Shown: positions 9,032 through 32,180 of the stretch, piece by piece
Layout of the letters: the number at the start of each line of letters is the position of its first letter
Position numbering within the stretch: the stretch's first letter is position 1
Source of the DNA: a virus
Direction: 5' to 3' (one strand)
DNA length: 34,984 bases
Virus record (IMG/VR): IMGVR_UViG_3300049491_000361
Location: 1 to 34,984 of that record
Notes under the pieces: generated by a model
Seen by the model: the letters and a program-made list of their open reading frames with translations, nothing else
The model's database searches: none
Told to the model about the DNA's origin: nothing
Made by a program: the position numbers and the translations under genes

Positions 9032-10384
9032 TTAATTCCTTTGTTTTGCAATTAACATATCGATTTGTTGTAATAATCGTTGTTTTGCAGTTAATGGGTT
9101 AGATGATTGTTTTGCTTCTGAAGTTGCTAGAGGTAATGTAGCATCAACAGGTGAATGATATCCTGGTAATTCTCGATATGGCCTTTTAAATAACTGATCA
9201 ACTGCGCGATTATCAATAGAATGTTTTGCTGCTTTAATTGCCGCAGGACCAAAAACCCCTGTTGCTGCAAGTGCGCCACTAACTAATGGATGACCGCCTA
9301 AAAAATGAGAGACTGCCGCAGCCGGCAACCCTCTAGTTGCGGCTCCTGTATATCCGCCCTCACTAAGATTCTCTTTTACTTTCGTAAAATATCCAGGTGT
9401 AGAAGCAGTTAATGCATCTTGAGCCTCTACTGCACCTCTCATTAGTTCGGATTCGGTCATTTCTGGTGTGCGAAATTTCGGATGTGTTCCGGAATAATCC
9501 GGTGCGTCGCGATATGTACTAATTTCTTTACGCAACTTAGCAAGTGCAGGACCTTGATCGCCTTTTGGCAACTCACTTATAAAGCGTAATTGTTCGGCAA
9601 TCATGCCTTCGCCGGTATAATTACCTGCTGGGTCAACATCATCGGGGTGTGCTTTTTCAAAGCGGCGAGCACCACGTTCGGCCATTATTACATCACCTGC
9701 AGTTTTACCTGCCTCTTTTAGTCCGCGAGCAGCTCTACCTACTGGGAAAATGCCAAGTAGATCTGCTGGCAAGTCCTCGACTGAAGCTCTTACATCCGGA
9801 TATTTCTCTGCATCGACACCGATAGTATCAGCTAAACTTCTACCGCTGCTCTTAAGTTTCTCACCAATTGGTGCAAGAAAGTGTCCTACTTCGCCACTAA
9901 TTCGTTGACCATGTTCGGTTCTCGGCATAAATGTGCCAGCTTGCTGGATTCTAGTCCTATCTGCCTTAATGTCTCTGTCTTCCGGTACTGTATTAAACAA
10001 GTCCTTAGTAATATCGCCAAATGCATAATCGTAACCGCGACCAAGTCCTTCAATTGCCTGCCTACCGCCCGAATATAGCAACGAGCCCAAATCAGAAGCA
10101 GCACCAGTGCCCATTTGTGCAGCAACTTCTCCAAGTCCATATGCTAATTTTGGGTAATCAGATAGCTTAGTGGATTCTACTTCCTTAGTTACTGGTTTAA
10201 ATCCAAGTTGAACTGCCTTACGGAGATTTGAAATATCAGTAAGTTCTTCGCCCTCATAGTCAGGATGTACAGAAACACCATAAAACCCAAGCTTTTTGGC
10301 TTTGTTTAAGTCTTCTTCATCTACCCATTCGTCTGTTACGTATTCTTTCGGGTCTAAATGTGGATTTCTAACTAGATATTTCAT
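9032..10384 (-). CDS. Probable internal virion/ejection protein, 450 aa
   Basis: The family was not recognised. The protein is rich in Ala and Gly, with segments that could insert in or lie on membranes (AAAVSHFLGGHPLVSGALAA, GVFGPAAIKAA). It also has helical charged stretches. The start MKYLVRNPHLDPKEYVTDEW has AAGGAAAACAA upstream. Together with the two genes before it, it occupies the place where P22 carries its ejection proteins gp7, gp20 and gp16. Assignment to that role comes from position and composition only. Confidence 0.55.
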   Translation of the reverse strand: MKYLVRNPHLDPKEYVTDEWVDEEDLNKAKKLGFYGVSVHPDYEGEELTDISNLRKAVQLGFKPVTKEVESTKLSDYPKLAYGLGEVAAQMGTGAASDLGSLLYSGGRQAIEGLGRGYDYAFGDITKDLFNTVPEDRDIKADRTRIQQAGTFMPRTEHGQRISGEVGHFLAPIGEKLKSSGRSLADTIGVDAEKYPDVRASVEDLPADLLGIFPVGRAARGLKEAGKTAGDVIMAERGARRFEKAHPDDVDPAGNYTGEGMIAEQLRFISELPKGDQGPALAKLRKEISTYRDAPDYSGTHPKFRTPEMTESELMRGAVEAQDALTASTPGYFTKVKENLSEGGYTGAATRGLPAAAVSHFLGGHPLVSGALAATGVFGPAAIKAAKHSIDNRAVDQLFKRPYRELPGYHSPVDATLPLATSEAKQSSNPLTAKQRLLQQIDMLIAKQRN

Positions 10385-10393
10385 TTGTTTTCC

Positions 10394-11620
10394 TTATGGG
10401 CGATAAAATATTCCGTCCTTATCTTCGAAACGTTTCTTTGGTGTTGCTACTGGCGTTGGCTCTTTCTTGTTCGGGTTATTGGGCGGCGGAACTTGATTTG
10501 TAGTTTCTGCAGTGGATCTTTTTTGTGCACGTTTAACGTTTGCTTCAGTAGTAGCTGCCAAACTTTCAAGTGCTGTTAATACTGCTTCTGGCCCAGTAGT
10601 TAAATCTAAAGTAACTCCGTGCTGCTCAGCTAAAACATCAAGTACTTGTTTTCCGCCTAGATACTTTTCGTCATTCCAAAATCTCTGCCATTGTTCTTGA
10701 TTGAAATTCTTAAAAATAGTCGGGCTTGCTCTTACTGTACCGACTAACTCTTTTATTGCCGAAATTGCATGAGAAATTGCTTCTAATTTAGTGCCTTCAG
10801 TCGACACAACATCACGTTGTTGTTTTCCTTCTTCCGGGGTAATGTAACGACTATCAAGTGATTTCTCTCTTGCAGTCTTAAATGTTTGGTTATTTTGAAT
10901 ATAAGCTGCCGACTTACCTTGATATACTTCTGGTGGTAGATGATAACCGCGTGCTTCTTCTTGCACTTGTTTAGAAATACTACTACCTGGATCGCGTTCC
11001 GCTGCTGTAGTTGAAGCTTCATATTGACCAGTTGTAGTTCTTGCAACTGTTTCTGCAGTACTTGCTTCAGTAGATTTAATGCCGGCTTGTTCGGCAGCAG
11101 GTAATGTACCAATTTGATTAGCTGCAATAAATGAATTTGCTTTGTCGTGATTAAAAGTACCATCCTCATCAAAGTAATTTAACGGATCGATATTGGCGCC
11201 AAAGTGATTTCGATAACTCGGAATAGCTCGTCTAGCTCCTTCTTCTCTTCGTTCCGGCGGTAAGGCATTCAAATATCCAGCAAATGATTGATTTGCCTTA
11301 TTCTGAAACTCGAGAGCACTACCAGAGCTTTTCAAATATGCATCCGTTACTTGTGCAGCTAGGTCAGGATAGCCTTGCGAAGCTAATTCTGGTGCTAGTG
11401 CTCCATAGTTAATGGTCTTAGTTCCGTCTGCATTAACAATGGTATGCTTCTTAGTTGCTTCGTTGAGCAATTTATAGCCGGCAATTTCTCGCTCGTGCTT
11501 CTGGGCATGAGCTACTTCTTGCCTCATTTCGGCATGTTGGGCTGGTAATGCACGCATCTGACCCGGCAGCGCATTAACATTATTGATGCCTTGTTGTATA
11601 ATTCCTAGATCAATTGCCAT
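10394..11620 (-). CDS. Probable internal virion/ejection protein, 408 aa
   Basis: The protein begins with MAIDLGIIQQGINNVNALPG and a long Gln/Ala/Glu-rich helix, then an Ala-rich body. The C-terminus is proline-rich and basic (QVPPPNNPNKKEPTPVATPK). This matches the look of long helical ejection proteins, but no sequence family was recognised. AAGGAC precedes the start. It follows the p32/gp7-like gene by eight bases, so it should be made late and packed in the capsid if the inference is correct. Confidence 0.55.
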   Translation of the reverse strand: MAIDLGIIQQGINNVNALPGQMRALPAQHAEMRQEVAHAQKHEREIAGYKLLNEATKKHTIVNADGTKTINYGALAPELASQGYPDLAAQVTDAYLKSSGSALEFQNKANQSFAGYLNALPPERREEGARRAIPSYRNHFGANIDPLNYFDEDGTFNHDKANSFIAANQIGTLPAAEQAGIKSTEASTAETVARTTTGQYEASTTAAERDPGSSISKQVQEEARGYHLPPEVYQGKSAAYIQNNQTFKTAREKSLDSRYITPEEGKQQRDVVSTEGTKLEAISHAISAIKELVGTVRASPTIFKNFNQEQWQRFWNDEKYLGGKQVLDVLAEQHGVTLDLTTGPEAVLTALESLAATTEANVKRAQKRSTAETTNQVPPPNNPNKKEPTPVATPKKRFEDKDGIFYRP

Positions 11621-12516: not shown

Positions 12517-13017
12517 TTAAAATAATTCTAGTTGTCCGTTGTGGACGATTAGTCGTTGTTGTGTATTTATAAAATTATCGTAGTCCTCAAATGTTTCGAA
12601 TGAGAACTCATCTACAATTTTATCTATATTTGTTTCTTCTGTGCAGTGAAATGTCATCCAATGCGTTTCTTCGTGCGTGTAAAGTAAGCGCTTACTACCC
12701 GGACTTGAAATAAATGTAGCCGGTGCTGCATAAGTTACTCTAGTATCGTGAGTAATAACCGAAACTACTCCCTTTGTAATTACATTTATACAGGCGTGTT
12801 TGTGTATTCGCCCAGTCATCATTGTATCGGCAGGTATCAATATCTTACGTCCATACACGCCCTGTGCAAAATAATGTTCAAGCGGATAATCAGCAATACC
12901 CATTTTATCTGGCTCGCCCATTAGTGCTTTCTCAACTTGTAATATTTGCTCACGAGAAGCACCTACTTGTGGATTAGCTAATGGGTTTTCTCTGAATACT
13001 AAGTCTAAACTGCCCAT
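12517..13017 (-). CDS. Cupin-like virion-module protein, 166 aa
   Basis: Residues about 60-125 look like a cupin barrel: IHKHACINVITKGVVSVIT matches the strand-turn pattern with a His pair, and SPGSKRLLYTHEETHWMTFH carries further His residues. Similar proteins are found in tail regions of other phages, role unclear. The start overlaps the stop of the previous gene (TAATG), so it is probably translationally coupled to the gp10 C-terminal piece. No catalytic activity can be claimed. Confidence 0.6.
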   Translation of the reverse strand: MGSLDLVFRENPLANPQVGASREQILQVEKALMGEPDKMGIADYPLEHYFAQGVYGRKILIPADTMMTGRIHKHACINVITKGVVSVITHDTRVTYAAPATFISSPGSKRLLYTHEETHWMTFHCTEETNIDKIVDEFSFETFEDYDNFINTQQRLIVHNGQLELF

Positions 13018-13502
13018 TAATTAGTTCCTTTTTCCACATCTAGATATGCACCTAACATAGCGCATTGCACTGGTGCTGTAATTATTACTCGGAATACTCT
13101 ATCTCTGGCCGCTCCAAGTCGATGCCATCTTGCTCTTGCTAGATATTGACCTGAAGTACCTAAACTAGCTTGCAGTGAAGCACTCCATGTTTTGCCGCCA
13201 TCGTTACTAATTTCAAGCGAAACTAGTGGTGGAGTAACTGGGTTATTAGTTGGATTGTTTTGTGCCGGATCAGCAATATCACCCACACCAAATTGCAAGT
13301 CCAGTTCGAACATCTTATAAAACATTTTATAAAGTTGTGCGGAGACATGAGGCGACTGCCTCAATCTCATTATTGGTAGGTTGTTGTCCGTATATAAATG
13401 AATAGCCGAATCATATACTATACCTAGCTTATAGTCGCCAAGATAATGCTTTCCTTTAAAGAATGCGTGGCATTGTGCTCTATGTCTTTCAAGTTGACTC
13501 AT
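13017..13502 (-). CDS. C-terminal part of a gp10-like DNA stabilisation (tail hub) protein
   Basis: The 161-residue protein reads like the end of P22-type packaged-DNA stabilisation proteins. ERHRAQCHAFFKGKHYLGDY and the following LGIVYDSAIHLYTDNN normally continue directly after the QWHERQS segment of the propeller. The later SLEISNDGGKTWSASLQASL, a WHRLGAARDRVFRVIIT strand and a final GAYLDVE complete it. The N-terminal two-thirds lies 1.7 kb upstream in the gene at 15173-17833. The two pieces sum to about 500 residues, near the usual family length. AAGGAATATT precedes the ATG. The pieces probably assemble together in the tail; this is inference from family knowledge. Confidence 0.75.
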   Translation of the reverse strand: MSQLERHRAQCHAFFKGKHYLGDYKLGIVYDSAIHLYTDNNLPIMRLRQSPHVSAQLYKMFYKMFELDLQFGVGDIADPAQNNPTNNPVTPPLVSLEISNDGGKTWSASLQASLGTSGQYLARARWHRLGAARDRVFRVIITAPVQCAMLGAYLDVEKGTN

Positions 13503-13510
13503 AATATTCC

Positions 13511-15163
13511 TTATGTGCTAGTAACTTGCCAGCCTTTTGCCGTTGCAATTGCTGGGTTATCTGTTGGTGTACCTGGATTGCCTGCGACAGTAACAGTTTG
13601 TCCTACTACAACTGGTAAATTCGTATACAATTCATTTAGTGAAGTAGCTGATAATTTGGCATTACTAACATCAAAACTAAATCTGAATCCGCTTGCTTTA
13701 AATGTTGATAAGTTTGCACAATTACTAAAAAGTGATAGCATACTCACCGAAGTAGGCGCATTAGTAAAATTCAATGCTGGTATACTTGGCAGCGATGCAC
13801 ACCCACTAAATGTAGCTTGGAAGTTTGTTCCTTTACTAAAATCCATTAATGGAACATATTGCAATAGGTCATTCTGTTCACAGACTGAACTTAGCACAGT
13901 TGCATTAGAAGTATTTAAGTTTGGTAGACGTCTAAACTGTCTGCAGAACTGAAACAGCCCATCGAACGTAACACCGCTACCAGTATCCCAATCTGGGATA
14001 GTTTTTAAGCTAACACAGGTATCGAACATTTCAACAAACGAAGTTACAAATCTAGTGTTAAATGCTGGTAGAGTTGTCAGTGTCGAACAATTTGCAAACA
14101 TTCTATTGAATGTTGTAGCAAGACGAACATCCAATAATGGCACTGTCTTTAATGCAAAACAGCCCTCGAACATACTTGTAAAAGTAGTTCCGGATCCGCA
14201 ATCAAATGCCGGTACAGTTGTCAATGAACGACATTGCCAAAACATGTTGGTGAACGTAACACCTCTTGCTGTATTTAAAAGTGGTACTGTAGTTAGGCTG
14301 CCGCATCCAAAAAACATTGCAGTGAAGTCAGTTACCTTAACTGTATTAAACAGGGGAATTGAAGTTAATGATTGACAGTTTTGAAACATGGCATTAACTG
14401 ATGTGACATTGGCTGTGTTGAACAGCGGAACTGATTGTAATTTATTACAGCCATCGAACATGTTTGTCATTGAAGTACCAGCTGCCGTATTCAGCAGAGG
14501 AACACCAGTTAAATTGCGGCAGTTTTGAAACATAGAACCAAATGTAGTACCTGCTGCTGTATTGAATAAATTCACATATTCAAGTGCCACACACCCAGCG
14601 AACATACTAGTAAAAGTATTTCCTGAATTGGTGTACACATTAAAAGATTTCAATGCTACTAAGTTGGCACAAAACGATGTGAAAGACGTAATAACATTTC
14701 TAGGTGAAGTAATTTGCTCTAACATACCAAGTGGTGCTGGCGGAGATGAGCCTGCAACAACGACACCACCCAATGCATTACCTGCAAAAGCAATATCAAG
14801 CCATGGTGTTCTATATGCCGAAAGTCCAGCAGTTGTATTCTTAATAGTCAAGTTGACTATAGTAAGATTACCTGGTGTTTGTGGTGTAATGGTAATAATG
14901 GACTGCTTGTAACCTCTAGTGGTCAAAGTGCCATTGAATACTGGATTGTTATAATCAAATAGATGCTGAGCTGTTGCTGCACTTGCAAAGTTTTCAACAA
15001 CTCCATCCCCCCAGTTTACTGTATATCCGCCAACTGCGGTTGCCGATAGTGCTATGTAATTGGATTGCTCAAATACAGCAAATAAGCCAACAACGATATT
15101 ATCGCCGTCAACTACCGGAGGCAATGGCAACCAATCAGCGGGTCTTACATAGGGTATTGCCAT
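13511..15163 (-). CDS. BspA/DUF285-type leucine-rich-repeat protein (second array)
   Basis: The 550-residue protein has a short start (IPYVRPADWLPLPP), a beta domain with SNYIALSATAVGGYTVNWGD, and about 13 repeats of 24 residues from about residue 200 (for example FGSMFQNCRNLTGVPLLNTA). It ends with a cap containing LSATSLNELYTNLPVVVGQT and ATAKGWQVTST. The repeats are of the BspA/Mycoplasma-lipoprotein type known from surface adhesins. No signal peptide is seen, so it is probably a virion protein. It lies between the two pieces of the gp10-like hub and has its own AAGGAG site. A receptor-binding role is inferred from fold and location. Confidence 0.85.
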   Translation of the reverse strand: MAIPYVRPADWLPLPPVVDGDNIVVGLFAVFEQSNYIALSATAVGGYTVNWGDGVVENFASAATAQHLFDYNNPVFNGTLTTRGYKQSIITITPQTPGNLTIVNLTIKNTTAGLSAYRTPWLDIAFAGNALGGVVVAGSSPPAPLGMLEQITSPRNVITSFTSFCANLVALKSFNVYTNSGNTFTSMFAGCVALEYVNLFNTAAGTTFGSMFQNCRNLTGVPLLNTAAGTSMTNMFDGCNKLQSVPLFNTANVTSVNAMFQNCQSLTSIPLFNTVKVTDFTAMFFGCGSLTTVPLLNTARGVTFTNMFWQCRSLTTVPAFDCGSGTTFTSMFEGCFALKTVPLLDVRLATTFNRMFANCSTLTTLPAFNTRFVTSFVEMFDTCVSLKTIPDWDTGSGVTFDGLFQFCRQFRRLPNLNTSNATVLSSVCEQNDLLQYVPLMDFSKGTNFQATFSGCASLPSIPALNFTNAPTSVSMLSLFSNCANLSTFKASGFRFSFDVSNAKLSATSLNELYTNLPVVVGQTVTVAGNPGTPTDNPAIATAKGWQVTST

Positions 15164-15172
15164 AGTTTCTCC

Positions 15173-17833
15173 TTAGGTGCCAACCACGGCCCAGCCTTTA
15201 CCAGTCGCAATTGCTGGGTTATCTGCTGTAGTTCCTGGGTTAGTTGTAATAGTGATTGTCTGCCCAACTACCACTGGTAAATTTGTATATAATTCATTTA
15301 ATGCTGCCGCCGATAACTTACAAGCACCAACTGAGAACGAGAACTTAAATCCAGTTGCTTTAATCGATGACAGTGATGGGCAAGTAGAGAACATGCCATT
15401 GTAGTTCCCAATTGCAGGACCACCACAATTCAATGCTGGTACTGTTTGCAATGAACTACAACCTGAGAACATCGAATTGAGTGTTGTTGCATTTGTAGTA
15501 TTCAACAGCGGGATTGTTACTAATGAAGCACATCCTGAAAACATAGAACTAAAATCAGTTACTCCGGCAGTATTCATTGGTGCAATGGATTTCAAATTCG
15601 TACAGTTGAGATACATCGAAGCACAAAGTGAATTGCCTGCATGCGCAACTGCTGAGGTTTCGAGTGCAGTACATCCACTGAACATGGTGCTCAAATTACT
15701 TGCAATTGGCATACTAAATGCTGGTACGCTTGTTAGTGATACAGCACCTAAGAACATATCAACACACGTGAATGCCTTTCTTAAATCAAATAATGGCACA
15801 GTGGTTAATGCAGTAGTTCCGCCAAAGCCATTACTTGCGAACATTCCAGTGAATGTGATTCCGTTACTTGTGTTAAGAAGCGGAACAGAAGTTAAGCTTC
15901 TGCAGTTAGCAAACATAGTACTGAAATTAGTACCTGCCACTGTGTTTAGCAATGGGATAGTTGTCAAAGCAGAACACCTATCAAACATACTTGTGAAATT
16001 TGTACCTTTGATAGTATTAATTGCCGGAACACTAGTTAGACTGCGATTAGCAAAGAACATACTTGCAAAAGAAAGACCATTGGCTGTGTTATATACCGGC
16101 ACACTTGTTAATGAAAGGCAGTTGCTGAACATGCCACTGAAATCAGTACCATTGCTAGTATCCAGTGTCGGTGCTGTTTCTAATTGAGTACAAGCACCAA
16201 ACATGCCATTAAAGTTTGTTCCGTTACTGGTACTGCTCAGTGTTACTGTTTTTAATGCAGTACATCCGCCAAACATCTCTACGAAGTTTGTTCCGCTATT
16301 TGTATATAAGTCAACCTCTTCTAATGATAGAAAGTTTCTAAAGAACTGAAAGAAGTTAGTAATTGTATTATTAGGCGAATATACTTTTTCTATTAGTCTC
16401 GAATCATCAAACCCGCCATCTGTAGTAATATCAAATGTAATTGAACTGAAAGTAGTACCTGCAAATCCAATTTCAATCCATGGCTTCACAAAATTAACTG
16501 TAATTCCGGTTGGGCGAATGCCTAAATTGATTGCAGTGAGTAATCCAGTTTGTGGCTTAATCGATACTTCTGCTGTTTTATAGCCATGGGAAGTTAATCT
16601 ATCAGTACCTAATGATGGATTTGTAAAGTCAAATTGATGCTGAATAGTTGCACCACTAGCAAAGTTTTCAATTACTCCATCGCCCCAATCAACTGTTAAT
16701 GCTGATGTGCCTGTAGCAGAAAGTGCAATGTAATTCGACTGTTCGTAAACAGCCAATGTACCAAGAAATTGTTCTGGTCCAAATACAGGTGGAGGCGGAA
16801 TAGGTTCTTCTACTGGAACAGTATAAGATTGTCTTTCGTGCCATTGATTTTCTGTTAGGTCGTAAACCCATGTGGTGGGTGCACCAGGGACATTCAATAC
16901 ATAAAAATCATGTCCTTCTTCTTGATAGCCATAGGCAACTGATTTTGATAGATCGCCATAACTTTGTAATGCAAGCGAAACTGGTTTGGTTGTTACTTCT
17001 TTTGCGCCTTGCCCTTCCATTATATAAACTGAGCCGCCGCCATTTCTAGTGCGGCCAAGCCATAATATTGTGCTTGCTAATTGCACTATCGAATATGGAG
17101 ATTCACAGCCAGTCGAAATATATTGTCCTTGTATTTGTTCAAATGGAGTTTGAAAGCTACGACCAGTATTTGACCATACCTCAATTGATTGTGTGCCCAA
17201 TACATACAGCAATTTGTTATCTGAAATTACCGCCACAACTGCATCCGATGTAGATGATTTAGTTGCTAGGTTAAGTTCCGGCCATGTTACTGCATATAAA
17301 TCACTTGTAAAAAATTCGGGTGTGCCTTTTCTATTACAAATAAAGTAGCCGTCTTGAAAGTCAATAGTATCCGCTGGGTAGAAGTGCTCACTAACAATCT
17401 TAGTGATAGTAGTTCCGCCAATAGGAATATAATAACCGGATTGGCCATCTACCGCGACCAGATCAATACCATTATCTGCAACTGAGATATAACCAACAAC
17501 TGTATCAAGTTGGCCTGTACATTTTTGCCATACCGAACCATTTAAAGTCATCCATACTTGGTTATCAACAAATGCATACATGCAATCAGTTTGAGCTGTT
17601 CTCAAATTGCCCGCAGGAACATACAGTTGGCGCATCGGATATGTAGTTTCAAAGTCTTTATTCAGCAATATACCTGGCGTGCCAAGTAGAACTGCTCTAT
17701 TATTATCTTTAGCAGTACCAGTTTGGTCAGTTTCAATATACATATTGACAGTCCGTTGGTTATTAAACCTATCGGAAACTGTTTGATAGCTGGGCCCTAC
17801 GAAGCCAGGCAATGGCTGTCTTTGTTCAGCCAT
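15173..17833 (-). CDS. gp10-like tail hub N-terminus fused to DUF285 leucine-rich repeats
   Basis: The 886-residue protein starts MAEQRQPLPGFVGPSY and continues as a P22 gp10-type propeller to about residue 335 (WVYDLTENQWHERQSY). A proline linker (VEEPIPPPPVFGPEQF) leads into a beta domain with ALTVDWGDGVIENF (about 356-480). About 13 LRRs of 24 residues follow (about 515-815), then the cap (LSAAALNELYTNLPVVVGQT). gp10 plugs the portal channel and forms the tail hub; normal relatives end with the segment found here in the gene at 13017-13502. I chose the ATG at 17831-17833: it overlaps the gp4-like stop (TAATG) and GGAGG lies upstream. The fusion would display an adhesin from the tail. Confidence 0.85.
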   Translation of the reverse strand: MAEQRQPLPGFVGPSYQTVSDRFNNQRTVNMYIETDQTGTAKDNNRAVLLGTPGILLNKDFETTYPMRQLYVPAGNLRTAQTDCMYAFVDNQVWMTLNGSVWQKCTGQLDTVVGYISVADNGIDLVAVDGQSGYYIPIGGTTITKIVSEHFYPADTIDFQDGYFICNRKGTPEFFTSDLYAVTWPELNLATKSSTSDAVVAVISDNKLLYVLGTQSIEVWSNTGRSFQTPFEQIQGQYISTGCESPYSIVQLASTILWLGRTRNGGGSVYIMEGQGAKEVTTKPVSLALQSYGDLSKSVAYGYQEEGHDFYVLNVPGAPTTWVYDLTENQWHERQSYTVPVEEPIPPPPVFGPEQFLGTLAVYEQSNYIALSATGTSALTVDWGDGVIENFASGATIQHQFDFTNPSLGTDRLTSHGYKTAEVSIKPQTGLLTAINLGIRPTGITVNFVKPWIEIGFAGTTFSSITFDITTDGGFDDSRLIEKVYSPNNTITNFFQFFRNFLSLEEVDLYTNSGTNFVEMFGGCTALKTVTLSSTSNGTNFNGMFGACTQLETAPTLDTSNGTDFSGMFSNCLSLTSVPVYNTANGLSFASMFFANRSLTSVPAINTIKGTNFTSMFDRCSALTTIPLLNTVAGTNFSTMFANCRSLTSVPLLNTSNGITFTGMFASNGFGGTTALTTVPLFDLRKAFTCVDMFLGAVSLTSVPAFSMPIASNLSTMFSGCTALETSAVAHAGNSLCASMYLNCTNLKSIAPMNTAGVTDFSSMFSGCASLVTIPLLNTTNATTLNSMFSGCSSLQTVPALNCGGPAIGNYNGMFSTCPSLSSIKATGFKFSFSVGACKLSAAALNELYTNLPVVVGQTITITTNPGTTADNPAIATGKGWAVVGT

Positions 17834-18579
17834 TAGAAAAGAAATCCTCCAGCTTTGTACCATTCAAATGGCAAGCCGGTTCCTCTGCGACCATTTAATC
17901 CAGAATCGAATTGGTAAGTTGGAGTAATGGCGTTTTGTTGTTTTAGTTTATCAATTGCAGCATTTGCAATTCCGAGTATCTCAGGACTAACTTGTTTACC
18001 AAATATAGGACAAATTTCAGCAGCTAATGCATAGGTAAATGCTCGTTGGTAGCCAGGAGGAAAATGTACTGGAGCATCTAAATTATCAAGTTCTAGTAAT
18101 GGCTGATATGTCCACATTATAATTTCCATGTTTACTTGCGGAACTGGCCAAAATGTTATCTTTCTATTCGGATAATTTCGATCATCATAAAAGTATAATG
18201 GCAATGTTGAAGTTGACAACTTAACAATAAACGAAGCCCATTGCTTTGGAGTTAGTTGCATAATAGGGAGATCTTGTTGTTGCTGGCCACCGGGGAATTG
18301 GCGTGTTTTCATAGTTGCAATAGACATTGGTCGCTTCATTGACCAATCGGCGCCAAGTGCTTCGCCTAGTTCATAGGATGCTTGTCCTGCTACAATCGGA
18401 AAGACAGATTCTTTTAAACTGAATACAAGTAATTCTTCATTGCTCCAGCTGTCTTCTAAATTAGTTAGTGCTATTTTTGCGGCCGACATATCACTAGCAG
18501 TCGGAGCTTCTCCGCTCTGGTACACTCCAGAAATTGTTAGTGCATTAGTGATGAGCTCGCGAACTGTTAGAGTGGTCAT
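17833..18579 (-). CDS. P22 gp4-like tail accessory (head-to-tail adaptor) protein
   Basis: The 248-residue protein matches the P22 tail accessory factor family. The N-terminus TVRELITNALTISGVYQSGE and the next ALTNLEDSWSNEELLVFSLK are typical, as are the central RKITFWPVPQVNMEIIMWTY and the late GYQRAFTYALAAEICPIFGK. It would bind below the portal and above the gp10-like hub. Some relatives also have murein hydrolase activity. AGAGGAAC precedes the ATG. It is the first gene after the strong terminator at 18629-18657. Confidence 0.85.
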   Translation of the reverse strand: MTTLTVRELITNALTISGVYQSGEAPTASDMSAAKIALTNLEDSWSNEELLVFSLKESVFPIVAGQASYELGEALGADWSMKRPMSIATMKTRQFPGGQQQQDLPIMQLTPKQWASFIVKLSTSTLPLYFYDDRNYPNRKITFWPVPQVNMEIIMWTYQPLLELDNLDAPVHFPPGYQRAFTYALAAEICPIFGKQVSPEILGIANAAIDKLKQQNAITPTYQFDSGLNGRRGTGLPFEWYKAGGFLF

Positions 18580-18658: not shown

Positions 18659-18886
18659 TTACTCTGCTATAAAGCCTTTCTGTCTTAATGCTGCAATAAC
18701 TAGATTAAGCGAAGTAATCGCGGAAGCCGCATCGGTTGCATTTGGGATCGCATTCGATTGATTAGTTCCGTCCTTACCGAAAAAGCCTACACGACTATTT
18801 GGCGCAATTCCAACTAAGGCTCCAAAATATCCTCCCTCTAGAACTGCTTCAATATCGCGTTGTTGCACATTTGGTGAACCTGCCAT
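18659..18886 (-). CDS. Small capsid-associated protein, paralogue 2
   Basis: This 75-residue protein is a clear paralogue of the next upstream gene. Both have a start rich in Gly, Ser, Pro and Asn, VLEGG(Y/A)FG near residue 17, a GF(F/H)GK segment near 35, a run of Ala/Thr/Asp residues, and a final ALR/ARAKG(F/L)IA helix. Similar small proteins occur beside coat genes in other phages as decoration or head-fibre proteins. The role is inferred from position. GGAGG precedes the ATG and a terminator follows directly. Confidence 0.65.
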   Translation of the reverse strand: MAGSPNVQQRDIEAVLEGGYFGALVGIAPNSRVGFFGKDGTNQSNAIPNATDAASAITSLNLVIAALRQKGFIAE

Positions 18887-18899
18887 ATATTACCTCCAC

Positions 18900-19127
18900 T
18901 TACGGCGCAATTAGGCCTTTAGCGCGTGCTGCCACTAAAAGCGCATTGACTGCGGCCATTGTAGTTGCTGGATCTGTTGCTGTGGCAATTGCAGCCGCTT
19001 GCGCGACCGCCTTGCCATGGAATCCAGCCAAACTAGTTGGGCTAATACCGACTGTTTCGCCGAATGCTCCGCCTTCTAAGACTGCTATAATTGCTGCGCC
19101 TTGTGTATTTGGTGTACCTGAAGCCAT
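18900..19127 (-). CDS. Small capsid-associated protein, paralogue 1
   Basis: A 75-residue protein (MASGTPNTQGAAIIAVLEGG...) directly downstream of the coat gene with a strong AAGGAG site. It shares the VLEGG-F-G, GFHGK and C-terminal ALLVAARAKGLIAP features with its neighbour, from which it differs mostly by Ala enrichment. It is probably a decoration or head-fibre component. The pair arose by tandem duplication and may form mixed oligomers; that is inference. Confidence 0.65.
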   Translation of the reverse strand: MASGTPNTQGAAIIAVLEGGAFGETVGISPTSLAGFHGKAVAQAAAIATATDPATTMAAVNALLVAARAKGLIAP

Positions 19128-25927: not shown

Positions 25928-27856
25928 TTAGCTTCCAGTGACTGACCAGCCTTTTGCAGTGGCTATTGAAGGGTCATCGCCCGCTATTCCTACGTTACCA
26001 GATACTGTAATTGTTTGACCAGTAACAGTTGGTAAACTTGTATAAATTTGATTAAGTGCTGCGGCTGATAATTTACAGTTCACTAACGAGAATGTGAACT
26101 TAGGTCCATTACCCGGCGACCAGTTAATTTTAGAAAGTGACGGGCAATTTGTAAACGTAGCCGAATAAGACGCATTGGTTGTAATTGCTGCTCTATTAAA
26201 ATTAATGTCTGGTATTTGTTGTAGTGATGTACAGTTGGCAAACATTGCGTTAAATCCGTTAGTACCGTTGGCAGCTGATGAATCAAACGCCGGGATAGCG
26301 CCAATATTAGTACACGCGTTAAACATGCCATTAAAAGTTGTGACTTTTACTGTGTTAAAAAGTGGGACAGTTTGCAATGAAGTACACGAAGCGAACATAT
26401 TTGATAAACTGTTCACATTTTGTGTATCCAAGAGTGGGACAGTTTGTAATGATTGGCAGTTTTGAAATAAGCTATTCATGTTGGTAACTTTTGTTGTGTT
26501 AAAAAGAGGAATAGTTTCTATTGAGTTACAACCATAAAATGTACCTAGCCCAATACTACCTCCGCCCATTAATGTTACATTCTGTGTATTAAAAAAGGGA
26601 ATAGTTTCAAGAGAGGAACAATTAGTAAACATGCCCGACATGTTGGTTACCGCGCTTGTATTAAACAAGGGTACACTTTTGAGTTTTGTACAACCCGAAA
26701 ACATTGATCCTATATTGTTGACTTTTATAGTGTTGAAAAAAGGGACTGTTGTCAATGAATTACAACCTGTAAATAATCCATTCATTGAAGTAACATTTCG
26801 GGTATCGAATAGCGGTACAGTTTTAAGATTTACGCAATTTGTAAACATACTTGTCATAGCACCGACATTCTGTGTGTCAAATAGTGGTACTGATTGCAGA
26901 GAACTACATCCAGTAAACATGTCTTGCATATTTGTAACTAAGCTTGTGTCGAATAGCGGAACTGATTGCAACGATGTGCAGTTTTGAAACAAACTGTTTA
27001 ATGAAGTATCATTATGACGTAGTATCGTGCATTTTTCCATTAACCTACATAGTGGCAAAGTAGTGGAAGAACTTCCTATAATTAAATTAGTAACTCCGGC
27101 ACTAATTGTTACATCTAATATAGGTTGCGAATATACTTGTAAATTGGCAGTAGTATTCTTAATATTTAGGTTGATAGTAGTTAATGGTGAAGTTCCATTA
27201 GTTGCAGTTACTTTAACCATTGCTTGTTTATATGGTAAAATTGTGCCAGTACCATTTGTTGTTAGTGGTAATATACTTCCACCTAATGTTAAACTTAATT
27301 GAAAAGTGTTAGGAGTGGCATTCACAACATAATAAGTTTGTAATTGAATAATTCCAGTCGTAGTTACAATTTCAGCAAATGAAATCTTCAAGCCATCTGT
27401 GTAACCATGTGCAGTACGATTTACTAAATTTGTTCCAGTTGTAAATGTTACTGCCCCGTCAGTACCTGTTAATCCGGGTACATTGTAATCATAGAGATAT
27501 TGTGCTGCGACGTTTGTTGCCACATTTACTGGTGCTGTTCCATCACCCCAATCAACAGTATATCCTCCAACACAAGCAAAAGTCATTGCAATATAATTGG
27601 ATTCTGGATAAACAGCTACAAGCATATCAACTTGTTCTTGCGCTGAGGTAGTTGCAGGCATAGGTAGCCACGTTGGATTTCTAACCCACGGAATAATAGG
27701 AGGAATAGGATCTCCACCACCAATCTCGACCACTGCACCACCTGAAGTTTTAGTGTACAGTTTGCCAGCAGTAGTATCAATGGCCAATTCGCCCTGTGCT
27801 AATGCACCAGTGGGCGGAATGCCAGTTCCATTCTTTAGAATAATAGTATTTGTCAT
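25928..27856 (-). CDS. Fibre-type adhesin with DUF285 leucine-rich repeats (third array)
   Basis: The 642-residue protein starts with a phage fibre N-terminal domain ([34 protein letters not shown]). It continues with [13 protein letters not shown] and a [20 protein letters not shown] beta domain. An extra domain of about 75 residues ([20 protein letters not shown] ... [15 protein letters not shown]), common in other phage tail proteins, interrupts that beta domain. About 12 LRRs of 24 residues follow ([20 protein letters not shown] and relatives), then the shared cap ([20 protein letters not shown]). It is probably a receptor-binding protein on the virion. No ribosome site stands before the ATG, which overlaps the previous stop as ATGA. 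Confidence 0.85.
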
Positions 27857-27996
27857 ATTGTAATTATTGCTCCAGCAATAGTCTTAAAGAATAGTTTTCC
27901 ATCAGCTGAATTAAGTGCAATTTCACCTAGTTGTAATTGACTTGGCAGTGGTACTTTGCCTGGCACATCACTGAATTTAAATATAATCACGTTCAT
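27853..27996 (-). CDS. Stand-alone fibre N-terminal (adaptor-like) domain, 47 aa
   Basis: A 47-codon frame starts by TAATG overlap with the stop of the large fibre gene and ends by ATGA overlap with the LRR adhesin start. The product ([20 protein letters not shown], then [20 protein letters not shown]) aligns with the first 45 residues of the downstream adhesin ([20 protein letters not shown]). It is therefore a free copy of that virion-attachment domain. It may link fibres to the tail or be a remnant of an older fibre gene. The tight overlaps support real translation. Confidence 0.6.
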
Positions 27997-30900
27997 TAAT
28001 AAGTTCCACCGAATATGGTTGAGTTAGCATCTAGCACTGTAATTCCTGCTTGTGTCATTGCTGTAGTTGAAGCAACACCTGTTGGAGTAATATTACCAAG
28101 ATCAAGTGTGAAACTACCTGAGGTTGTGATTGGGCCTCCAGTAACTACAATTCCGTCATTGCCGACAATGTTTACGGATGTAACTGTACCAGAACCACCA
28201 CCGCCACCTGTTGGTGTTGTCCATATTGGCTGTGCACCCGGTCCCTGTGAAGTGATTACTTGGCCTGCTATACCTGCATCATTGTTGAATAGGAAAGTAC
28301 CTGTTTCATCTACGCGGAAATCTGCACCAAAAATACTATTATAGAGTTGGAAGTTATTACTAAGGAAAATTATCTCTCCATTACCAGCATTAATCGTAAG
28401 TGCCGCACCTACAGTTTGGTCGCCAACAGTAACTTGCCCTGCTTGTACTTTAAAAATTTCATTTGTCAATCCCCTTGTATAAACACCAAATGCTGGTACG
28501 CTAGCATCGGGCGAAGCCTCAATACCAACAGCAGAAAGATATGGTAGGCCGGATGAATCTACCATATCCCTAAAAAGGAATCCAGGTGTTGCTGGAGTAC
28601 TATACCTATCAGCAGATATTTCCCATATTTGTGTGCTGTTCACTGTCAGTGTATTAGGTTCAAAAGCACTTGTTAGTGAGCTTAATGGAACATGCAAGCC
28701 AATAGCTGATGGGTAAACATTGAAACTTAATACAGTTGGCTCTGCGGCATTTGGGTTTACATACGTGCTAAAAAATTCAGTTGCAGAACTGGCTCTCGCC
28801 CATAAGTTAACGGTAGTAAACGGAACTATAGGCTGATCGTAAATTATATTTCCAGTATATCTTTCACGAATGTATTGTGACTTTCTAAATGTTTGAAAGT
28901 ATGTAGTTGGTTCTTCAGAATCAAAACCAATACCAATATCTATTGACCCAAACCCACTGCCACCTTCACTGATGCTTACTTGGAAATTAAACGCACCTGT
29001 ATTTGCCGGGATATCATCGAAAAAACTAAAGTCAATAGATAAACCGGGTGCGATTGCAACCCATGGACTTGGAACTGGATCACCTTGATTATAAATTCCG
29101 AAAATAGTATTTGTGTCGCTATAAGAAACACTATACACTGGTGCTGGTGGTGGATTAGCACCAAGAATAGCGTTACCTTTAGTATCAAATCCAGTTACCA
29201 CTAACTGTGAGCCAACCAATACAGTTGATATATTTGCTGCAAGTAATTCTGCATCTAGGACAATAGAACTACCTTCAACATGCACACCAGTAGATAATTC
29301 ATTTGTTAATACATTTCTACCACTAATTTGAAACGCTTGTGGTGTTATTTGATAATCAGTATTTGTTAAGCGTATTTGTCCACTTATTTCAGGATCATAA
29401 TCTGGAATACCATTTGGTGTAAACTGCAAAGGCCCCCACATGGTATCCCCGCCTCTGTACACTCTATCAGTTACATCTCCACCACCTGATCCATTAGCAG
29501 CTAATGTGATTCTACCAAAAGCATCTACAGTGATATTTGCAGAAGTATAACTTCCAGCAGTAACACCAGTAGCAGGTAATTCGGCAGTAAGTGTTCCATT
29601 TGAAACAATAGGGCCGCCACCAACTGTAATTGTTGCATTAGGTGAACTAATATCTACAGAAGTAACTGTGCCACCCGATCCACCACCTGAACCAAGTACG
29701 GTCACTTTTAGTAAGCTAGGTCGTTCTGAGTTCCTAGCGATAGCTTGGAAGCCATTTTGCCCAAGTCTACCACGTGCATAAAGTTGAAACGTAGTGCCAT
29801 TAGCAATAAAAGTAGAATTAGTTGAAGTATTTGCGTAAAGTTGTTTTACTCCATTGCTGATAGAATATGCAATAGCATTAATTACTAGTGGATCAACTCC
29901 ATCTAATGAAACACCAATCTCAAATTCACCTGGCTTACTACCTGGGTTCTCAACTAATAATTCAAACGTGATACTTCCTGTATTAGCTTCTATGTCTTGT
30001 GTAATAGTGCCAATGTCAGTAACTTGTACCCATGGTCCTGGTAATGCACCACCTAGGTAAATGTCAACATCGGTAGTGCCATTAACGGATTCTACATAAT
30101 CTGGCACTGGAGGTGGTTCAACACCTAGAATTGCATTGCCGCGTTCTGTTAATCCAGCAACAATTACCCTAGAACCTGGTTGTGCAGAGTTAAGTTTAAG
30201 TGAAATATCAGTTGATTCAATAGCAACATAGGAGCCGCCAATGCGCACACCTGTATCTGGTATTGAAGTATCGAAATCTGTATCCCAAACACCGCCAAAT
30301 AATTGTAGTTCTGGGCTGGTTGTTACATCTGGCTTGGCAAGTAAGATTGATGTGTTGTTGTCAATGTTGCCAGTAATAGCAAAATGTAGTGTACCAGTCA
30401 TTGTATCGCCAGCAACATCTACGAACTTATCTACTAAATCAAGCTGATCATTAATGTCACCCTGGATAGTTCCCCACTCAGCAAAGCCAGTTTCAGCAAA
30501 TGTGATGCGACCATATTGATCAACAGTCACATTGGCTGTCGTGTAAGTATCAGGAGTAACACCAGTTGGTATTAAGTCAACGTTAATTGTTCCTGAAGTT
30601 GTGATTGGTCCGCCTACAGTACTGATTGTGGCGGTGGGCGAAGCTAAGTTAACAGATGTAACAGTACCAGCAGCACCAACTGAACTACCTCCACCTAACC
30701 CACCTGCTTGTCTAAATACTGCATCGCCAATATTATTCAAGTTAGCAGCGCCATTTCTAACAGCGAAACGTGCTATTTCAACAACTAAGTCTAGTCCTGG
30801 AAATATGTTTGTAAATGGCGCAGTTGACATTCCTTGAGCTGCATCACCTAAGTTGGCATAAGGAGCTTGTCCAACTTGTAAAACAATATTACCAGTTGAA

Positions 30901-32180
30901 GTAATAATAAATCGTTGCACCGATGCAGTATTTGGCCCACCAGTAGAAACCATAGCTGCACCATTCCAATACTGAGTAGTTTGGACTGCTGTTCCAGGTG
31001 CAGGAAATGCTACCAATGCGGCTGTTCCAGGATTTAACGTGATGAAACTAGTTGGATTTGCTCCAGCAACAGGTTTTTCATGTGGAGTAGCTGTATGCCA
31101 CGCAATATTCTCGCCTTTAATAAAGCCAGGTAGGTTCTGCACAGTCAATCCCGCATTGGGAACTATGCTTACATTCGACTCGAACACATTGAATGTCTTC
31201 GCAAAACCATTGTTGCCAGCCATATCCGGGTAAGTTTGCACATTACGTGGACCTGCTGCGCCATTAGTGAATGAGTTTACACCAGCAACTCTCTTAATGA
31301 ATGCAACACCAAGCATAATAAAGTTAGGGTCGAGTGCTGTTGAATTATTTGTGAAACTTACTACGCCACTGCTATTATACGAAACATACTTTATGTATAG
31401 GCCGTCTGCTGGGAGACTTACGGTAGACAGTGGTATATCTAGCTGTAGAAACGATTTTATAGCTCCTCTAAATCCTGAAGCATCTATTGAGTTGTAAAAT
31501 AATCCTTGTTGAAGTGGTAGTATGCGTAGAGTAGTATCATTCAATGCTACTAATGCAACAGTATCATCGTAAGAAACTACACCAGTGAAGCCGAAAGCAA
31601 TGGCAATAGTGTCAATTATATCGGATAAGTCAAGTTGATCTTCTAGGTCACCAGTAATGTTGCCCCATGACACTTCGGTAGCTACTTCACTTGCTGCTGT
31701 TGTTAAGCCTTTCTCATTAACAGTTATGATTGGAGTAAAGCCAGGTCCACCCCAAGTACCGGGATCAAAGTTGACTGTGTTTAGAGTAAGTGGCAATGTA
31801 GCATCAGGTGCGCCACTAGTTGTACCAGTACCATCCCCGCTTAATGTAACAGAGGCTAATCTATCAACCCAGCCAAGTACACCAAGACCATTAGTCCCAA
31901 GTGTTTGATGTATAATGCCAGCATTGGGCGGATAAGTCCAGCTTAGTGTAGATACTTGATCTGCGGAAGTTTTAAAGTCATGTAGGGCACCGCCACTGTT
32001 AAGTGTCATCTGTGGCCCATTCACATACAAATATTCAGTTTTAAGTGGCCAATAGTTATTTGCAGGATCTTTAACAGCCAGCACACCCGGTTCATTAACT
32101 AGAACAGTTATATCCGCGCCACTAAATCCAATGCTTAGCTGTGGATTATACGTTCCTGTTAGGTTAAGCCACTTTTCCAT
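27996..32180 (-). CDS. Large tail fibre-like protein, 1394 aa
   Basis: The largest gene encodes a modular fibre. The N-terminus (MEKWLNLTGTYNPQLSIGFS) differs from its neighbours. Three related modules carry GTVTSVN/D..., an (A/T)TITxGGPI segment, and then, in two of them, GVTxxxYTxANxTVDxxGRI, the glycine- and threonine-rich sequence of many phage fibres. These are followed by coiled or beta parts, GGDTMWGPLQF-type linkers and Gly-rich breaks. No catalytic site and no C-terminal chaperone domain is recognised. It ends with SAD/trimer-like sequence and TIFGGTY. AAGGAATAACAC precedes the ATG. It is probably virion-attached; receptor unknown. Confidence 0.75.
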   Translation of the reverse strand: MEKWLNLTGTYNPQLSIGFSGADITVLVNEPGVLAVKDPANNYWPLKTEYLYVNGPQMTLNSGGALHDFKTSADQVSTLSWTYPPNAGIIHQTLGTNGLGVLGWVDRLASVTLSGDGTGTTSGAPDATLPLTLNTVNFDPGTWGGPGFTPIITVNEKGLTTAASEVATEVSWGNITGDLEDQLDLSDIIDTIAIAFGFTGVVSYDDTVALVALNDTTLRILPLQQGLFYNSIDASGFRGAIKSFLQLDIPLSTVSLPADGLYIKYVSYNSSGVVSFTNNSTALDPNFIMLGVAFIKRVAGVNSFTNGAAGPRNVQTYPDMAGNNGFAKTFNVFESNVSIVPNAGLTVQNLPGFIKGENIAWHTATPHEKPVAGANPTSFITLNPGTAALVAFPAPGTAVQTTQYWNGAAMVSTGGPNTASVQRFIITSTGNIVLQVGQAPYANLGDAAQGMSTAPFTNIFPGLDLVVEIARFAVRNGAANLNNIGDAVFRQAGGLGGGSSVGAAGTVTSVNLASPTATISTVGGPITTSGTINVDLIPTGVTPDTYTTANVTVDQYGRITFAETGFAEWGTIQGDINDQLDLVDKFVDVAGDTMTGTLHFAITGNIDNNTSILLAKPDVTTSPELQLFGGVWDTDFDTSIPDTGVRIGGSYVAIESTDISLKLNSAQPGSRVIVAGLTERGNAILGVEPPPVPDYVESVNGTTDVDIYLGGALPGPWVQVTDIGTITQDIEANTGSITFELLVENPGSKPGEFEIGVSLDGVDPLVINAIAYSISNGVKQLYANTSTNSTFIANGTTFQLYARGRLGQNGFQAIARNSERPSLLKVTVLGSGGGSGGTVTSVDISSPNATITVGGGPIVSNGTLTAELPATGVTAGSYTSANITVDAFGRITLAANGSGGGDVTDRVYRGGDTMWGPLQFTPNGIPDYDPEISGQIRLTNTDYQITPQAFQISGRNVLTNELSTGVHVEGSSIVLDAELLAANISTVLVGSQLVVTGFDTKGNAILGANPPPAPVYSVSYSDTNTIFGIYNQGDPVPSPWVAIAPGLSIDFSFFDDIPANTGAFNFQVSISEGGSGFGSIDIGIGFDSEEPTTYFQTFRKSQYIRERYTGNIIYDQPIVPFTTVNLWARASSATEFFSTYVNPNAAEPTVLSFNVYPSAIGLHVPLSSLTSAFEPNTLTVNSTQIWEISADRYSTPATPGFLFRDMVDSSGLPYLSAVGIEASPDASVPAFGVYTRGLTNEIFKVQAGQVTVGDQTVGAALTINAGNGEIIFLSNNFQLYNSIFGADFRVDETGTFLFNNDAGIAGQVITSQGPGAQPIWTTPTGGGGGSGTVTSVNIVGNDGIVVTGGPITTSGSFTLDLGNITPTGVASTTAMTQAGITVLDANSTIFGGTY

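Follow-up and report, generated by a model that had tools for sequence, protein, structure and literature searches.

Can the nozzle of a short-tailed phage still be built when its gene lies in two pieces with leucine-rich-repeat (LRR) modules between them? This question is raised by a P22-like podovirus known from a 34,984-base IMG/VR record, the whole of which we analysed and refer to as the window. On its minus strand, terminase, portal, scaffold, coat and a gp4-like adaptor follow one another in that order, as in a P22-type structural operon. The gp10 slot after the adaptor is taken up by three frames, 17833-15173(-), 15163-13511(-) and 13502-13017(-), and the locus reads as follows.

17833..18579, minus strand: adaptor (gp4-like), directly upstream of the N-piece; Pfam SU10_adaptor, 2.8e-9
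16823..17833, minus strand: nozzle N-piece, gp10/Hc3 residues 1-337; phrog_578 positions 8-327, E 3.7e-65
16781..16822, minus strand: proline-rich linker TVPVEEPIPPPPVF, identified from its sequence
15173..16780, minus strand: DUF285 LRR module 1, fused in frame to the N-piece; Pfam DUF285, 4.8e-24
15168..15172, minus strand: GGAGA resembling a ribosome-binding site, 4 nt ahead of the module 2 ATG and immediately behind the fused gene's stop
13511..15163, minus strand: free-standing DUF285 LRR protein (module 2), 550 aa; Pfam, 6.6e-40
13508..13510, minus strand: GGA resembling a ribosome-binding site, 5 nt ahead of the C-piece ATG
13017..13502, minus strand: nozzle C-piece, 161 aa, starting MSQLERHRAQC; phrog_578 positions 330-473, E 8.1e-25
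12517..13017, minus strand: downstream 166-aa gene, phrog_12032 'short tail fiber', whose start lies on the C-piece stop codon

The start codon of the N-piece overlaps the adaptor stop (TAATG), and since the adaptor adjoins it upstream, the N-piece occupies the canonical gp10 slot. Both downstream cistrons are preceded by gaps of 8-9 nt in which GGAGA or GGA, resembling a ribosome-binding site, stands ahead of the ATG, and neither intergenic gap holds a terminator-like site. Elsewhere in the window, two tandem paralogous 75-aa genes (MAGSPNVQQRDIEAVLEGGYFG / MASGTPNTQGAAIIAVLEGGAFG; 18659-19127) lie between coat and adaptor and perhaps encode decoration proteins. A 1394-aa gene at 27996-32180 gave no match in a Pfam scan, and its PHROG matches, all to families of unknown function, are weak; its product is probably a long fibre or virion protein.

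The N-piece, which lies within an 886-aa protein, comprises the first platform part and every propeller blade except the last, while the C-piece comprises the final propeller blade and the C-terminal platform half, including the platform motifs SNDGGKTW and RWHRLGAARDRVF. Along the 486 positions of phrog_578, which PHROG names 'head closure Hc3', the matches of the two pieces abut. Nozzle HMMs that we built from 16 intact homologues recognize both the N-piece (E 2.3e-84) and the C-piece (E 4.3e-44), and both match PDB chains 9vyg_M and 7eeq_1, with 8tvr_S matched additionally by the N-piece. Members of gp10/Hc3 are single polypeptides; because the nozzle here is found in two ORFs, 3.3 kb apart, we filed it as a split variant and not as an ordinary phrog_578 member. 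A preliminary description of this DNA had proposed a gp10-like gene split by LRR modules, and every element that it named is present. The 161-residue gene is the gp10 continuation that it was taken for: a missing gp10 C-terminus would have counted against this, and the gp10-family C-terminus was matched. The pieces also sum to the family length, as had been expected (337 + 159 = 496 aa, versus about 440-545 aa in intact relatives). The propeller had been said to stop at QWHERQSY, at about 16840; this part of the chain does end there, at Y337 with its last base at 16823, but the propeller is unfinished at that point, since its last blade is in the C-piece. The description of gp10 as a DNA plug does not hold, gp10 being instead the nozzle or closure ring.

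Nothing pointed to an intron or intein as the cause of the split: an Rfam scan gave no match to group I/II intron RNA (no tRNAs were found either) and Pfam scans of the pieces gave no intein family (Hint/intein domain). The C-piece also matches phrog_19101, which we considered as a second split family and rejected, because its full-length members are mostly 1200-1500 aa and share only the last domain; the long members are probably gene-transfer-agent hub proteins. This family was matched in 64 of 398 genomes. The last 75 of its positions are common with the nozzle C-terminus, so a phrog_19101 annotation can mislabel nozzle C-pieces.

The material between the nozzle pieces consists of two DUF285 modules that are 45% identical over 540 aa. 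As the preliminary description had it, a proline linker leads from the N-piece into DUF285 repeats, and the middle gene is a complete second DUF285 gene. Module 2 has a PKD-like N-domain, an LRR solenoid and a C-cap; its AlphaFold2 model (pLDDT 92.8) is predicted as a beta-sandwich plus an LRR solenoid, with generic LRR proteins as the top fold matches, at low TM-score. Set beside the phage DUF285/BspA-type LRR proteins with a WVRPxDWLxLP N-terminus (phrog_9915, phrog_22899), module 2 is a normal free-standing member, and module 1 agrees with them in its core and in how it ends at the C-terminus. In other phages such a module is usually its own gene with a short N-terminus, and the stand-alone form is common, whereas the window has one copy fused to the nozzle. 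The module end ...IATAKGWxVT followed by a stop is the natural C-terminus of the phage DUF285 family and is the same in the window, and we infer that the inserted adhesin gene's own stop caused the nozzle break.

A third DUF285 gene of the window (25928-27856) is tail-fibre-like: its start weakly resembles Mtd_N and it matches tail-fibre PHROGs. It is a possible partner for recombination among the modules. By analogy with this use in tail fibres, DUF285 (PF03382, to which Pfam assigns no function) may act as an adhesin. Locus L139 has an intact nozzle gene and, 1.3 kb further downstream, a DUF285 gene that precedes a homologue of the 166-aa gene; in L028 another receptor-binding-type gene sits between the nozzle gene and that homologue. 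No gene separates the C-piece from the 166-aa gene in the window, where the adhesin-like genes are found one C-piece further upstream, inside the nozzle.

Intact relatives locate the break precisely. A tblastn search against 50,697 phage records found both pieces adjacent within single annotated genes in Vibrio phage 1.184.A, Rhodoferax P26218, VvAW1, Xanthomonas PBR31 and others; in 1.184.A they align back to back, the N-piece to 9912-10838 and the C-piece to 10839-11276. Scanning IMG/VR and the phage records for the family yielded 184 related viral loci (99 + 77 complete, a few of them on contigs already counted, + 8) in which the nozzle is unsplit at the window's site and both parts share one frame. 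Where measured, the loop of intact loci holds 0-15 residues, versus two adhesin-like genes in the window. No second split at this site was found among the 184 viral loci or in about 18 prophage genes; G126 and G007 were set aside, as they have longer frames without a clean split. Relatives ending naturally at QWHERQS, which would have contradicted the earlier reading, were not found. DUF285 was seen inside a nozzle gene in no searched genome besides the window, and it adjoins an Hc3 gene elsewhere only in L139, whose nozzle is unsplit. The window's nearest relative in the tree is L028 (support 0.93). An AlphaFold2 model of the intact relative L029 (48-row alignment, pLDDT 90.4) superposes on P22 gp10 (8eap_D; Z 39.7, 441 aa, 2.3 A) and on the nozzle proteins of Pan3, Sf6 and Pam1. 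The junction maps in this model to the turn that connects strand 309-316 with strand 320-331; no strand is cut, and in chain order the junction lies between the last two propeller blades. The family comparison and the L029 model thus point to an insertion at a variable loop followed by breakage of the chain, which supports the earlier suggestion.

Since the window is a metagenomic contig with three DUF285 genes in one record, their repeats could in principle have joined unrelated reads. Near relatives are also lacking in the collections searched: single-sequence patterns for the C-piece, the N-piece and the LRR gene returned no close relatives from IMG/VR, or three distant ones. However, the longest exact DNA word common to any two DUF285 modules is 19 nt and GC3 is uniform (0.28-0.29), which argues against repeat-driven misassembly and against recent import alike. 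The junctions are moreover in frame, and the linker, stop, ribosome-binding-like sequence and start fall exactly at the family boundary. We consider an assembly artefact highly improbable.

The N-piece (16823-17833) evolves far faster than its counterparts in other phages, while the C-piece appears ordinary. The N-piece keeps 58 of 97 conserved positions (60%; intact relatives 87 +/- 9%), and its terminal branch in a tree of 151 N-parts is 1.0, versus a median of 0.10. This divergence and long branch fit an altered constraint, but they fit partial decay too, and the insertion might simply have broken the nozzle gene of a dying or defective phage, with the C-piece as a relic. The C-piece, however, retains 84% of the strongly conserved positions (31 of 37), much as intact phages do (86 +/- 8%), and has its own start and ribosome-binding-like sequence, making decay unlikely. 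Every frame is open, no frameshifts were seen among the structural genes examined, and a split nozzle with an intact C-piece is retained in 42 loci elsewhere. Decay is thus an improbable account of the locus.

These 42 loci belong to a separate lineage that is broken at another loop. In the prophages G306 and G560, nozzle residues 1-400 are fused to He_PIG and other domains, and the ATG of a separate 74-75-residue C-piece overlaps or abuts the stop. A scan with the two sequences returned 68 loci; with the two prophages added, this second-loop set comprises 42 split, 10 circularly permuted and 10 intact loci, and 8 that are cut by contig ends. The split loci have N-frames of 639-978 aa with Ig/LamG/propeller domains on the N-piece, followed by a second, coupled gene of about 70-110 aa that usually starts within a few bases of the stop. 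Members occur in viruses and prophages (L527-L594; L481, 7427-10091; L491, 5877-8986). As in the window, their nozzle is broken at a module, with the N-piece fused to the module and a coupled C-piece gene. Unlike in the window, the break is at phrog_578 400/408, the inserts are He_PIG plus variable domains, there is no second inserted gene, and some members are permuted. At the same second loop (phrog_578 about 402/409), an unsplit nozzle (L359:11092-13443) carries a 273-residue insert flanked by proline-rich linkers, for which there is no Pfam match.

In the permuted loci (L556, L558, L563-L567, L577, L578 and L591; 4 of the 10 frames run off the contig end), the N-part shares its frame with the C-piece motif ...VRYTKDAGNW..., which stands ahead of it, and the chain now terminates in the added domains. 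The added segments of split and permuted forms match LamG, Ig and propeller domains, and those beyond the Ig domain fall into 16 groups without mutual blastp similarity. A single clade of the N-part tree (support 1.0) contains the split and permuted forms together with intact sequences, and the window lies outside it. This position and the different break site indicate that the window's break was an independent event. The 42 loci split at another loop and the 10 permutants show that nozzle splitting to display adhesin-like domains is recurrent, and they support the view that breakage is a stable, selected state.

By profile and fold, and by its slot after a gp4-like adaptor, the window's nozzle is of the same family as P22 gp10 and the nozzles of Sf6, Pam1 and Pan3 (phrog_578; PF11134). 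Those are one chain, whereas the window has two, with LRR modules between the last two blades. The SU10 nozzle gp17 is a propeller with domains inserted between blades, and fibres dock on a propeller loop (PMC9509320); it is a structural precedent for domains inserted in a nozzle propeller, as in the window. However, gp17 is one chain with Ig-like domains between blades 2 and 3, an arrangement that the window, with its LRR insert between the last two blades, does not have. Because the SU10 domains between blades build an extended nozzle (PMC9509320), the LRR modules might similarly lengthen or stabilise the tail and have no part in receptor binding. We find this rather unlikely, as the distal domains of the parallel lineage are unrelated between phages (the 16 clusters), as expected of host-facing parts, and the same module type occurs in the tail-fibre-like gene of the same phage. 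The type of module, together with module swapping in the parallel lineage, suggests that the LRR modules are receptor-binding.

As the pieces are separate genes, the N-piece fusion could alone be a working nozzle, the C-piece having taken another role. That is quite improbable, given that the C-piece retains its platform motifs, that closure of the propeller needs the last blade, and that the permutants of the parallel lineage re-attach the C-piece in front of the N-part and do not lose it. Assembly of the two chains finds its best indirect support in these permutants, since they demonstrate that the opposite end of the chain can carry the C-terminal piece.

Taken as a whole, insertion of an adhesin, splitting, non-covalent re-assembly and LRR display is the probable explanation of this locus. 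An ancestral phage would have gained a DUF285 LRR adhesin gene in the loop joining the last two nozzle propeller blades, where the module's own stop codon, normally the protein C-terminus, would have ended the nozzle frame. The C-terminal 159 residues of the nozzle would have been kept as a separate cistron, with a start codon and ribosome-binding site gained, and the adhesin would have been duplicated, or a second one would have arrived, leaving one fused and one free copy. The present gene arrangement can be read directly from the DNA, and the order of these events is our reconstruction. The N- and C-chains, made from nearby, tightly spaced cistrons, would join non-covalently, the C-chain contributing half of the platform and the final blade to a normal hexameric nozzle. 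Each of the six subunits would display an LRR module on its proline linker, and the displayed modules may contact the host surface besides the phage's separate fibres. Gene sequences show that the same trade has recurred in the separate lineage, at another loop and with Ig/LamG/propeller modules, and that one branch of that lineage resolved it by circular permutation.

Searches of the open-access literature gave no published account of a gp10-type nozzle that is split or permuted. The nozzle is essential to the tail channel. Its gene has been broken at two loops, in separate events, and a third form is circularly permuted. These forms suggest that separate pieces can build the nozzle fold and that evolution uses this property to place variable adhesin-like domains beside the DNA exit. 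The finding explains why phage and prophage genomes contain separate genes for adhesin-like nozzle fusions and for gp10 C-termini of about 70-161 aa, and it makes the coupling of receptor contact to channel opening in short-tailed phages testable. The chances are about even that P22-like podoviruses use their nozzle ring as a general platform on which host-binding modules are displayed, with adhesins repeatedly put into its loops and three solutions for the chain (one long, two coupled, or permuted); the DNA-gating ring and the receptor-binding organelle would then be the same complex.
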